Shown: positions 3,731-51,525 of the stretch, one piece after another
How positions within the stretch are numbered: position 1 is the first letter of the stretch
Layout: the number at the start of each line of letters is the position of its first letter
From: Lachnospiraceae bacterium
GTDB taxonomy: Bacteria; Bacillota; Clostridia; Lachnospirales; Lachnospiraceae
DNA length: 64,000 nt
Direction of reading: 5' to 3'
Assembly: GCA_910574195.1 (NCBI GenBank)
Contig: CAJTBF010000002.1
Coordinates: 1 to 64,000, forward strand
Position numbers and translations under genes: made by a program
Notes under the pieces: model-generated
What the model was told of the DNA's origin: nothing
Seen by the model: only the letters and a program-made list of their open reading frames with translations
The model's database searches: none

Positions 3731-3750
3731 GAGGAAATGAGGTGAGAAAC

Positions 3751-4347
3751 ATGGCAGATATTTTATATACGTACAATGGGAAGGTGTATGTCAACCTGAC
3801 AAACCGGTGTGACTGTAACTGTAAATTTTGTATTCGTAGTCATCATGATACCGTAGGCGATGCGGTGACACTATGGCACAGGAAGGATCCCACATTGGAG
3901 GAAGTGAAAGCAGCTATGGATGCGTATGATTTCAGCGAAAAGAAAGAGCTGGTTTACTGCGGGTATGGCGAACCAACCTGTGCCCTTGAAAATCTGATGG
4001 GATCCGCAAGATACGGAAAGGAGCGTTATGGGCTGCAGATTCGGGTGAATACGAACGGCTTGGGGAATCTTTATCACAAGAAAGATATTGTACCGATTCT
4101 TGCGGAAGTGGTGGACTCCGTTTCCATCAGTCTGAATGCGCCCACAAAAGAGACATATATGGAAGTAACCCGTCCGCAGTTCGACGATGCTTTTGAGGCC
4201 ATGCTGGCGTTTACAAAAGCATGCGGCAGGGTGATTCCGGAGGTGAAAATGACGGTGGTGGATGTGTTGCCGAAAGAGGAAATAGAAGCCGGCAGGAAAC
4301 TGGCGGAATCCCTGGGGGTAGAACTGCGCGTGCGGAGTTATGTGTAG
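3751..4347 (+). CDS. TatD-associated radical SAM protein
   Basis: A small (198-residue) radical SAM protein. The Cx3Cx2C cluster motif is CDCNCKFC near residue 21, followed by GYGEPT (SAM-binding GGE-like) and NTNGLGN. This pattern matches the short family often found beside or fused to TatD nucleases; the substrate is unknown. The GTG nine bases upstream (3742) overlaps the ribosome binding site gaggtgag, so ATG 3751 is the better start. No tatD gene is visible nearby. The stop codon TAG is immediately followed by GTTAC, the start of an inserted repeat. Confidence 0.8.
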   Translation: MADILYTYNGKVYVNLTNRCDCNCKFCIRSHHDTVGDAVTLWHRKDPTLEEVKAAMDAYDFSEKKELVYCGYGEPTCALENLMGSARYGKERYGLQIRVNTNGLGNLYHKKDIVPILAEVVDSVSISLNAPTKETYMEVTRPQFDDAFEAMLAFTKACGRVIPEVKMTVVDVLPKEEIEAGRKLAESLGVELRVRSYV

Positions 4348-4382
4348 GTTACTGTGCACACTCCACGGGCGCGTACAGCAAC
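4348..4382. repeat. Short GTTAC-ended segment beside MITE copy A
   Basis: The segment starts GTTACTGTGCAC and ends GTACAGCAAC, so its ends are roughly inverted. It is preceded by atgtgtag and followed by atgcgtag (7 of 8 identical). It may be a separate, older or internally deleted relative of the adjacent element, or the left part of a nested insertion. Confidence 0.35.
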
Positions 4383-4389
4383 ATGCGTA

Positions 4390-4454
4390 GTTACATTTCA
4401 CCCCCCACGCCAGTTGCTCGCAATGATTTCGTACGATCTGGTGTGAAAAGTAAC
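4390..4454. mobile_element. MITE-like element, copy A (65 bp)
   Basis: The ends are GTTACATTTCAC and GTGAAAAGTAAC inverted. Inner arms (cacgccag / ctggtgtg in this family) give a long hairpin with a loop of about 24 nt. Exact 8-bp direct repeats catgcgta flank it (4382-4389 and 4455-4462), the sign of a target duplication. It carries no coding capacity. Related copies lie at 24094-24157 and 51212-51500. Confidence 0.8.
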
Positions 4455-4588
4455 CATGCGTAGTCTTTTGAAGCATCTCATGTTTGTTTTCTATTGATTT
4501 AGAACGGATTTTGGGATATAGTAGTTGATAGATAAGTGATGCATTTTACAAGCCAAAATCGGAAGAAAAATCAGTAGGAGGTATGAAG

Positions 4589-22878: not shown

Positions 22879-22902
22879 AAGATGGAGGAAGAGCTGCCGG
22901 GG

Positions 22903-24093
22903 ATGAAAAAGGGGAATGTGAAAAAGAAGAGAAGAAAGTGGCTGTGTATTTTCTTGCTGACAGGGCTTGCGCTCTGTCAGCAGGGGTGTGGGGAATCTTC
23001 CACCCAGGAGACGGACGGACAAAGTGCGCAGAAAGAAGAAGTGCAGGAACAGGAGCCAGAACAGGATACAGTCGAAAAGTCAGAATTAAAATCAGATCAG
23101 GAAGCAGACATAGAGAAAAACACGCAGACAGAGAGTGAAAAAGAGAAACAAGAGGCTCTCTCATCGGGATTGGCATGTCCTTCTGTGAACGGAGCGCTTC
23201 ATGTGGAAGGAACGAGACTGGTGGATCGGACGGGGACGCCGGTGCAGCTTAGAGGGATCAGTACCCATGGAATCGCCTGGTTTCCGGATTATGTAAACGC
23301 ACAATGTTTTGGGGAACTGCACGAGCAATGGAAAGCGAATGTAATCCGTCTGGCGATGTACACGGCAGAGTACGGTGGTTATTGTACGGGTGGAGAGAAA
23401 GAACATTTGAAGGAACTGATTCGAAACGGTGTCCGGTATGCTGCGGAGCAGGATATGTATGTGATTGTAGACTGGCATATTTTATCGGATGCGGATCCGA
23501 ATATATATATGGAAGAAGCGAAATCTTTTTTTGCAGAGATAGCGGGAGAATACGCTGATGCGGACCATATTCTGTATGAAATCTGTAATGAGCCGAATGG
23601 AAGTACCGATTGGAACGCGATTAAAAGATATGCGCTTGAAGTCATCCCGGTGATTCGCGCTCAGGATTCCGATGCGGTGATTCTTGTAGGGACGCCGAAC
23701 TGGTCGCAATTTGTGGATCAGGCAGCGGCCGATCCGATTACAGAATATGAAAATCTGATGTATACGCTTCATTTCTATGCCGCTACACATACGGATGATC
23801 TGCGGCAAAAAATGCAGGCGGCGGTGGAAAACGGCCTGCCTGTTTTTGTGTCAGAATATGGAATCTGTGATGCCAGCGGCAATGGCGCCATTGATGAAGC
23901 GCAGGCGAATCTGTGGGTGGAAGCGATGGACCGCCTTGGAATCAGTTATGTGGCATGGAATCTGTCAAATAAAGAGGAATCGTCGGCTATGTTACAAAGC
24001 TCTTGCGGAAAAACCAACGGATTTGTACAGGAAGATCTCAGCGCTTCTGGAAAATGGCTGTATCGGATGCTGACAGAAGCAGAGCAGAAGTAG
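22903..24093 (+). CDS. GH5 family endoglucanase-like lipoprotein
   Basis: About 396 residues. A lipoprotein signal has a basic start (MKKGNVKKKRRKW), a hydrophobic core and a Cys at QQGC. An acidic, Gln/Glu-rich linker follows, then a GH5 cellulase-type barrel: LRGISTHGIAWF, NVIRLAMY, YVIVDWHILSD. The acid/base Glu is in YEICNEPNG and the nucleophile Glu in VFVSEYGICD. It probably cleaves beta-glucans or mannans at the cell surface. ATG 22903 lies ~10 nt after ggaggaagag; ATG 22882 lacks a site. Its stop TAG is immediately followed by an inserted MITE-like element. Confidence 0.88.
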   Translation: MKKGNVKKKRRKWLCIFLLTGLALCQQGCGESSTQETDGQSAQKEEVQEQEPEQDTVEKSELKSDQEADIEKNTQTESEKEKQEALSSGLACPSVNGALHVEGTRLVDRTGTPVQLRGISTHGIAWFPDYVNAQCFGELHEQWKANVIRLAMYTAEYGGYCTGGEKEHLKELIRNGVRYAAEQDMYVIVDWHILSDADPNIYMEEAKSFFAEIAGEYADADHILYEICNEPNGSTDWNAIKRYALEVIPVIRAQDSDAVILVGTPNWSQFVDQAAADPITEYENLMYTLHFYAATHTDDLRQKMQAAVENGLPVFVSEYGICDASGNGAIDEAQANLWVEAMDRLGISYVAWNLSNKEESSAMLQSSCGKTNGFVQEDLSASGKWLYRMLTEAEQK

Positions 24094-24157
24094 GTTACAT
24101 TTCACCCTCGCGCCGGTTATCCAAAACAATTTCATACGATCCGGTGTGAAAAGTAAC
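24094..24157. mobile_element. MITE-like element, copy B (64 bp)
   Basis: The ends are GTTACATTTCAC and GTGAAAAGTAAC inverted. Exact 8-bp target duplications agaagtag lie at 24086-24093 and 24158-24165. The left duplication contains the GH5 stop codon, so the insertion spared the gene. Confidence 0.85.
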
Positions 24158-24180
24158 AGAAGTAGAGCAAAAAAAATCAA

Positions 24181-24254: not shown

Positions 24255-24384
24255 ATACCTTATCGGACGCAAAGCGTCCGCCCACCCGAAGGGTATCAGA
24301 TACGGGATGCCCGGTGGGTATACCTTATCGGACGCAAAGCGTCCGCTCACCTGAAGGGTATCAGATACGGGGTGCCCGGTGGGT
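24255..24384. repeat. 65-bp direct tandem duplication
   Basis: Two units (24255-24319 and 24320-24384) differ at a few bases. Each holds the hairpin cggacgcaaagcgtccg and the partly complementary cccaccc/ggtggg arms. They lie in the pan operon leader. 24385-24498 shows nothing else. Confidence 0.9.
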
Positions 24385-24498
24385 ATATTTATTTACAGAT
24401 CCAGAGATCCACACCGGAATACAGATGGAACTTATATCATTTTTGCATAGTGTGAAAGAATGAGATTTCATTATTGTTATGAAAAAGAAGGTGGTTGA

Positions 24499-29378: not shown

Positions 29379-29403
29379 CAACCATAGGGAACAATGGTAT
29401 GAT
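29375..29403 (+). promoter_or_regulatory. Sigma-A promoter of rplJ-rplL
   Basis: A consensus ttgaca (29375-29380), a 17-bp spacer and tatgat (29398-29403). The -35 box overlaps the coaBC stop codon. Confidence 0.9.
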
Positions 29404-29408
29404 AATCA

Positions 29409-29530
29409 GGCAATTAGCTGCCGAAGACAGTAGGTGCCGTAAGGCATAAGATGGGAACGCCTACCGAGGGATGCGAGATTCATAGTATTGGATTTTACCT
29501 CTGTGTCTTGGTGTGCACAGAGGTTTTTCT
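29409..29530 (+). ncRNA. L10 ribosomal protein leader
   Basis: It has the typical L10 leader core (gctgccgaagacagtaggtg, then ggcataag and gggaacgcctaccgagg). This mimics the 23S rRNA site so that L10(L12)4 can repress its own operon. A hairpin acctctgtg/cacagaggt followed by T5 (29497-29528) is the leader terminator. Confidence 0.9.
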
Positions 29531-29579
29531 GTGTACGGCTGAATGTAACTGAAATTTATACAAGGAGGTGCACCAGAAC

Positions 29580-48924: not shown

Positions 48925-49189
48925 TACGTGCATTACGCTTCGAATGCGTCTCCGCAAACGGAATCCTGGCAGTTGGCTCAGTCCAGGCGCCCTCACAACA
49001 CCCGGAAGGTTCTGCTTAGTGCTGCTTCGTTCCCGACCTGACACGGTTCACAGATTTCCGTCGCGTGAGACCCGGACTTTCAACGCTACTTGCCAGAAAC
49101 AGCTTTGCAGATCAGCACCCTCCGCGTAATATCACCCCTGCTATAGCGGATTGCAGGTACAAGGTACCGCTAACACCCCGGCTGCACGA
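48925..49189 (-). ncRNA. ffs: Signal recognition particle RNA (large bacterial type)
   Basis: The minus strand contains the conserved SRP domain IV core (gtgtcaggtcgggaacgaag, then cagcac) and an Alu-domain region (gggtgctgatctgcaaagc). Length is about 265 nt, the long form seen in Firmicutes. A consensus promoter lies at its right and a strong terminator at its left. Confidence 0.93.
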
Positions 49190-51164: not shown

Positions 51165-51211
51165 AGAATCACCTCTTGTTAGAAAAGTCTGTGGACGGCA
51201 ACTATATACGT

Positions 51212-51500
51212 GTTACATTTCACACCCACGCCAGTTACTCGCAATGATGTCATATGATCTGGTGTGAATGCAACGAATCCGGCTCATCTCAAGTTGCCTT
51301 ACGGCAAGGGGCCGGATTCTCCATGGGGGAACGTGCATCCTCCGCCGCCGTGCAGCAAAGTGCACGGCGCCTTGCATCTTGCTGCAAGGCATCCGGCCAG
51401 TAAAGCAGCGGTTTCAGGCATCCAGCCCCTCGCCCTTCGGCGACTTTTCAATGGGCTGGATGCGTTACAGCTCGCGGCCGGTTAGGCCGTGAACTGTAAC
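51212..51500. mobile_element. MITE-like element, long copy C (289 bp)
   Basis: The left end GTTACATTTCAC and right end GTGAACTGTAAC are inverted. Exact 8-bp target duplications atatacgt lie at 51204-51211 and 51501-51508. The first ~60 bp match copies A and B. The interior is a chain of hairpins: gaatccggc/gccggattc, ttgccttacggcaa, gtgcagcaaagtgcac, ccttgcatcttgctgcaagg, and gcatccagccc/gggctggatgc. Open frames across it (51264-51492) are hairpin artefacts. Confidence 0.85.
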
Positions 51501-51525
51501 ATATACGTAAAGGAATGGGACTGGA

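Follow-up and report, generated by a model that had tools for sequence, protein, structure and literature searches.

The short repeats of the window (the whole 64,000-nucleotide stretch of Lachnospiraceae DNA analysed here) very probably form a MITE family with an ISBst12-like partner of IS66 type. Conserved ends, 8-bp target duplications, a high copy number and occurrence in relatives mark the family, and a branch of IS66-type transposase genes, found also within the same genus, agrees with it in ends and in the length of the duplication. In the mechanism we favour, an ISBst12-like DDE transposase would recognise the ends of about 12 bp (GTTACWNTTCAC) of gene-less MITEs and insert them by an 8-bp staggered cut, whose filling-in would leave the 8-bp duplications. 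The window copies would have been moved in trans by a transposase of the branch whose ends begin GTTAC, which was not found in their own genome, and internal deletions and fusions would have turned one size into another, after which some of the forms would have moved independently.

MITE copies in the window

The earlier note had described three copies with GTTAC...GTAAC ends and exact 8-bp duplications, and on re-reading their coordinates and flanks proved exact: catgcgta + 65 bp + catgcgta at 4382-4462 (copy A), agaagtag + 64 bp + agaagtag at 24086-24165 (copy B) and atatacgt + 289 bp + atatacgt at 51204-51508. The whole window was then scanned for GTTAC...GTAAC units of 15-320 bp, allowing at most two mismatches in total over the ends and the 8-bp duplication and at most one in the duplication. 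The scan returned four units: these three copies and, between ATGTGTAG and ATGCGTAG, one of 35 bp (4348-4382). With shuffled pentamers, 196 controls returned 0.26 units on average and never more than 3. The features are as follows (source of each in brackets).

4340..4347, unstranded: target duplication left of the 35-bp unit, ATGTGTAG (window scan)
4348..4382, + strand: 35-bp minimal unit of the same kind, ends GTTACTGTGCAC...GTACAGCAAC (window scan)
4383..4390, unstranded: target duplication right of the 35-bp unit, ATGCGTAG, 7/8 against the left (window scan)
4382..4389, unstranded: 8-bp target duplication left of copy A, CATGCGTA (window scan)
4390..4454, + strand: copy A, 65-bp MITE, ends GTTACATTTCAC...GTGTGAAAAGTAAC (sequence, genome search, window scan)
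4455..4462, unstranded: 8-bp target duplication right of copy A, CATGCGTA (window scan)
24086..24093, unstranded: 8-bp target duplication left of copy B, AGAAGTAG (window scan)
24094..24157, + strand: copy B, 64-bp MITE (sequence, genome search, window scan)
24158..24165, unstranded: 8-bp target duplication right of copy B, AGAAGTAG (window scan)
51204..51211, unstranded: 8-bp target duplication left of the 289-bp copy, ATATACGT (window scan)
51212..51500, + strand: 289-bp MITE, apparently composite (sequence, part-by-part genome matches)
51464-51500: 37-bp palindromic module, the right end of the 289-bp MITE
51501..51508, unstranded: 8-bp target duplication right of the 289-bp copy, ATATACGT (window scan)

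The 35-bp unit, which was absent from the earlier note, abuts copy A and has a duplication matching at 7/8 positions. Base 4382 has a double role, as the last base of the 35-bp unit and the first base of the left duplication of copy A. By its sequence, copy A is evidently inserted into the right duplication of the 35-bp unit, which would be the older of the two, because CATGCGTA consists of the last base of that unit and seven bases of its right duplication.

In all four window copies, seven of the eight outer bases are repeated in inverted orientation (terminal inverted repeats GTTAC..GTAAC), and at 35-289 bp the copies have the length of MITEs, too short for a transposase gene. The word hairpin, used in the earlier note, has only moderate support for the 65- and 64-bp copies: their ends can pair, but the DNA fold is weak (−7.3 and −8.1 kcal/mol) and is equalled by 9/200 and 12/200 shuffles, respectively. 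Units of 37 and 26 bases fold better than 199/200 and 200/200 shuffles.

Two of the units lie at the 3' ends of genes. The left duplication of the 35-bp unit takes in the TAG with which a radical-SAM gene (3742-4347) ends, and that of copy B the stop codon of a gene for a GH5 cellulase-like protein (22882-24093). In both, the stop codon of the upstream gene is kept by the duplication, which suggests, from two cases only, that gene 3' ends are a tolerated niche. Directly after copy B (about 24256-24390) the window carries, in tandem, a repeat with CTTATCGGACGCAAAGCGTCCGC...GGGTATCAGATACGGG...GCCCGGTGGGTATA, and similar sequence adjoins a truncated end at two other loci (L070 and L112).

The family in the genome of the window

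The 65-mer has eight copies in the genome of the window (G000) and no match in 11 congeners (both at E 0.001). Its flanking repeats, so far noted in the window, recur at other genomic copies: four of the eight have exact duplications (three in the window and one on contig C7), three have one mismatch and one has none. The 65-mer had no match in phage and plasmid collections, and exact patterns of the 18-bp, 26-bp and 65-bp types were not found in viral contigs.

The end motif GTTACWNTTCAC occurs 58 times in this genome, against 3 for the reversed control. A partner end with a duplication was found exactly for 13 of these ends, with one mismatch for 14 and with two mismatches for 0, where both ends of one element may each count; 20 flank-shifted controls gave means of 0.0, 0.15 and 1.45, respectively. 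About half of the 58 ends have no duplication-bearing partner. The units with duplications measure 35-37, 64-69, 146-155, 176 and 289 bp. At most 22 were counted, and the true number may be lower, since an element whose duplication is imperfect may have been entered once from each end.

These counts bear on the reading that the units are structural or regulatory repeats (REP-like sequences or terminators) kept by selection, with flanking repeats that arose by chance. The position of the 35-bp unit and copy B at gene stop codons, the pairing of the ends and the folding of the 37- and 26-base units beyond almost all or all of 200 shuffles would fit such a role. It predicts, however, duplications no commoner than in shifted controls, and exact 8-bp duplications were far above them; Rfam at gathering thresholds has no family at the MITE positions; and REP sequences moved by RAYT are not known to have target duplications, unlike the GTTAC units with their 8-bp duplications. 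We regard selected repeats as a most improbable account. The same Rfam search placed ordinary RNAs elsewhere in the window, the bacterial large SRP RNA (48926-49189, − strand) and the L10 leader (29403-29538, + strand).

Distribution in the Lachnospiraceae

The end motif was surveyed in 120 sampled genomes of the family, the genome of the window included. At least one GTTACWNTTCAC match was present in 84 of the 120, mostly at control level, and at least 20 in 11, which we call motif-rich. The maximum was 186 matches in a 4.9-Mb genome (G122; reversed control 0), and another relative (G069) had 98 against 1 in the reversed control. Duplications were sampled in both: 59 of the 186 ends of G122 gave 18 exact, 11 with one mismatch and 4 with two, and 58 of the 98 ends of G069 gave 12, 6 and 2. 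Shifted controls for the two genomes had means of 0.0 exact, 0.10-0.15 with one mismatch and 1.0-2.05 with two.

A scan free to choose its pentamer, seeking any [8-mer][5-mer]...[inverted 5-mer][same 8-mer] over 10-70 bp, found GTTAC 12 times and all other pentamers together 3 times in loci of the window's genome, G069 and G122, which had been chosen because they bear the motif. The 78 named transposase loci described below gave 0 GTTAC and 3 others, and the loci from the genus no case of any pentamer.

These results offer a probable origin for a repeat that is abundant and interspersed in some Lachnospiraceae genomes, and they link that repeat to a little-studied transposase branch. In a literature search that left most subscription journals outside, we found no paper on miniature inverted repeats in Blautia and, by title, no MITE of IS66 or ISBst12 kind; the strings GTTACTGTTCAC, GTTACTATTCAC, GTTACTTTTCAC, GTTACAGTTCAC and GTGAACAGTAAC turned up in two papers, neither with a title on transposons.

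The 289-bp copy and its insertion site

Positions 2-159 of the 289-bp copy match G000:C6:13234-13392 at 96%, and positions 152-289 match G000:C4:148496-148632 at 95%. Because its left and right parts match two different genomic copies, the element looks like a fusion of two elements that moved as one unit. Its earlier description as a long copy of the family therefore stands for the ends and the 8-bp duplication, which are exact, but not as a simple longer version, the copy being apparently composite. The right part is common in several congeners.

The genes that flank the 289-bp copy lie together in four congeners (L394, L395, L403 and L415). Compared with the window without the element, the spacers there differ by +33, +43, −41 and +59 bases, where about +297 would be expected if element and duplication were present. 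The stretch between the flanking matches was also free of duplication-bearing GTTAC...GTAAC units in two further congeners, G004 and G003, the second of which has a longer gap that contains other open frames. The 289-bp copy was thus not found between the same flanking genes in any of the six congeners examined. This comparison is between species of the genus only, and the exact insertion site cannot be aligned because the spacers are too diverged between species.

Non-autonomous transposition, proposed at the outset from the window alone, is well supported by the multiple copies, the conserved ends, the many different 8-bp duplications, the absence of such a unit between the flanking genes of the 289-bp copy in the six congeners examined, and a transposase branch that matches in ends and in duplication length, to which we now turn.

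A candidate transposase partner

At one locus of G062 (L126), two ends with perfect 23-bp inverted repeats containing GTTAC lie 2.3 kb apart on either side of an IS66-type transposase gene; their flanks do not match. A search of 15 genomes with the L126 protein found only itself; the search was therefore carried on with the Pfam model PF03050 (DDE_Tnp_IS66) and afterwards with a profile of six rows (A2). PF03050 led to L172, a divergent IS66-type gene with ends GTTACTGTTCACACCC/GTTACTGTTCAGACGC and an exact duplication GCCGGAAT, and scored above cut-off in L126, L172, L382 and L384. A2 yielded 78 named loci (from the best 80 of 109 matches), mainly in Lachnospiraceae and other Bacillota; a PDB sequence search with A2 gave no match.

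The ends of these elements were sought without reference to any motif. Among the 78 named loci, 18 pairs combined an exact 8-bp duplication with an end match of at least 11/14, and all 18 begin GTTAC; the remaining pairs all reached at most 9/14. The same scan of 30 classical IS66 control loci gave no exact-duplication pair above 10/14 and none beginning GTTAC; these loci had short flanks and their true ends were not recovered, so the control shows only that the scan itself does not produce GTTAC.

With nine loci from a congener (G002) added, 87 partner loci were examined for the ends, with no more than one of nine fixed positions mismatched. At least one end was present in 86 of the 87 and both in 55. 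Of the 51 with both ends and flanks, 25 had exact duplications, 0 had one mismatch and 26 had none; the 25 are not all independent, since L204-L206 share one duplication, which is therefore counted once. In G002, four of the six copies of a 2,458-bp IS and all three copies of a 2,176-bp IS carry an exact duplication with a 14/14 end match, giving seven insertions with seven different exact 8-bp duplications. A 121-aa open reading frame upstream of the transposase in a G002 IS (L382, 1602-1964) possibly encodes an accessory protein; the extra small frames of L126 and L382 have no Pfam or NCBIfam match, and L172 likewise has a second small frame.

An IS1182-type frame begins at the junction of the GTTAC IS in L172 (763-3120), L204 and L206, and the other part of this gene was not found at these junctions by the same search. 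The GTTAC IS and the IS1182-type frame occur with the same duplication in records that bear the names of three different species, and such a nested pair may have spread together.

Across 25 genomes searched, A2 matched only in the congeners G002, G005, G008 and G009, some of the matches being fragments. It had no match in any of the 11 motif-rich genomes, the genome of the window among them, and partner and MITEs were therefore not found together there. PF03050 detected one classical IS66 only in the window's genome, for which ends with a duplication were not found. The autonomous transposase with the same ends, for which the earlier note suggested a search, thus exists in relatives, including the same genus, but was not found by A2 in the genome of the window itself. 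In the motif-rich genomes the autonomous element may have been lost or may fall in a gap of the assembly, or the ends may be used by another transposase.

On the last of these views, the MITEs would be moved by a different transposase that happens to share the GTTAC ends, with the IS66-type branch one of several users. It would account for the lack of any A2 match in the 11 motif-rich genomes, five of which (G067, G069, G098, G121 and G122) have 30-186 ends and no detectable IS66-type transposase (E 0.001). Against it, no other transposase was seen between such ends among the far pairs listed (for G122, 100 of the 186 ends), where a 909-bp pair of G122 encloses a 257-aa gene-like frame that by look is not a recognised transposase, and a 2.2-kb pair in the window's genome is a MITE with a nested IS1182 that has its own ends. 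Furthermore, the autonomous copy of a MITE is commonly lost after spread. We consider a different transposase improbable and prefer the ISBst12-like partner.

IS1182 had itself been a candidate. The 2.2-kb pair (C5:98596-100787, 2,192 bp) encloses an IS1182 gene scoring 283.7 bits against an NCBIfam cut-off of 270, and the candidate was dropped because this IS1182 is nested inside the MITE with its own ends, GGGGGCTGTCGG/CCGACAGCCCC. The outer flanks of the pair (L069 797-2988, equal to G000:C5:98596-100787), CTAAACTT/CCAGACTT, match at 6/8 positions.

Relation to the ISBst12 group and to other systems

Its ends, its duplications and a transposase tree allow the family, which the earlier note did not recognise, to be put beside the ISBst12 group of IS66. 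In the tree, the GTTAC branch and ISBst12-like elements together split from classical IS66 at 100/100; support for the GTTAC branch itself is 91/77. The place of ISAva2, on a long branch, is unsure. On the NCBIfam IS66 model NF033517, nine members of the GTTAC branch score 101.7-172 bits, below the cut-off of 180, the lowest value coming from L177, which is cut off by a contig end; the classical IS66 of the window's genome scores 363.

On plasmids, the closest relatives are IS66-like elements with a single gene, including those annotated ISGst1, ISGka4 and ISAva2; we count ISGst1 and ISAva2 as ISBst12-like on the evidence of the single gene and of the tree. A table in PMC8024623 assigns the IS66-type copy of pHTA426 to the ISBst12 group and uses the name ISGka4 for another element. 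Seven ISBst12-like plasmid copies, hand-picked from 95 and 48 matching records and including two of the same IS, all have exact 8-bp duplications, with ends GTAAC in six and GTAAG in one (ISAva2). According to the accessible part of PMC12898284, ISDge4 of the ISBst12 group has an 8-bp repeat, and its ends read GTGACTACTCAGCA and GTAACTGCTCAGCA.

The GTTAC branch resembles the ISBst12 group in its 8-bp duplications and in the ends, GTAACTATTCAG / GTAACTGCTCAG being close to GTTACTNTTCA(C/G). It differs in the third base of the end, T instead of A, and in size: copies with exact duplications measure 1,906-2,929 bp in the GTTAC branch against 1,454-1,635 bp in ISBst12-like elements, and the open frame 528-607 aa against 449-490 aa. 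L126 and L382 also have an extra small frame. From sequence comparison, we class the partner as ISBst12-like and do not file it as a member of the ISBst12 group, because its ends begin GTTAC where that group has GTAA. Classical IS66 shares with the GTTAC branch the DDE_Tnp_IS66 domain and the 8-bp duplication (excerpts of PMC6778807 and PMC11946415), but its ends begin GTAAGCG (excerpt of PMC11946415), it lies apart on a long branch and its NF033517 score is 363 against 102-172.

The MITEs can also be compared, by description, with the BOX and RUP elements of Streptococcus pneumoniae, which in the accessible part of PMC3049150 are high-copy, short, modular and tightly folded, with inverted ends and target duplications, and for which mobilisation in trans by an IS was proposed. 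Both have these traits in common, with mobilisation in trans a proposal in each case; the proposed partner differs, being IS630-Spn1 for RUP (PMC3049150).

The smallest units

Units shorter than those of the window occur in relatives. In the G122 sample, units of 24-28 bp comprise 7 with exact duplications, 3 with one mismatch and 2 with two; in G069, two units of 18 bp have exact duplications, and units of 17-27 bp include 3 with one mismatch and 3 with two. One 17-bp unit has a duplication of 7/8. Over 40 shifted controls, small units averaged 0.0 exact, 0.025-0.075 with one mismatch and 0.0-0.175 with two. The window's own genome showed no unit of 15-34 bp with a duplication at any of its 58 ends, in a search whose length limit and end pattern exclude the units of 35-37 bp.

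In many long elements a palindromic terminal module nearly equals a solo unit. Units of 17-37 bp are probably not mobile themselves and would be remnants of longer inserts that lost their middle, either through near-precise excision or through slippage from an inner CAGYAAC to the outer CAGTAAC; this is compatible with transposition by an ISBst12-like partner. Since the inner boundary of the palindromic module repeats the outer right end almost exactly and in the same direction, deletion between the two would leave precisely the short unit and its duplications. The many sizes, and 17-19-bp units with variable junctions that are too short for two full 12-bp sites, point the same way. Solo units also mix GTAAC and GCAAC right boundaries, but this is not decisive because inner boundaries vary in long elements too. 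Weighing against deletion, 24-28 bp is the commonest size class with duplications in the G122 sample, which would need many independent deletions.

Alternatively, the 18-28-bp units with exact duplications (and the 17-bp unit with 7/8) were themselves inserted, each carrying roughly two abutting or overlapping transposase sites. They would then be the smallest mobile DNA elements, and the palindromic end modules of longer elements would be self-sufficient transposons. We think this unlikely and deletion the better account, because abutting or overlapping sites would presumably leave no room to bend the DNA into a two-ended complex. The sizes form a series from 289 down to 18 bp with exact 8-bp duplications at many of them, so that both the minimum length of a DDE transposon and the origin of short forms, by deletion or by transposition, can be put to the test.
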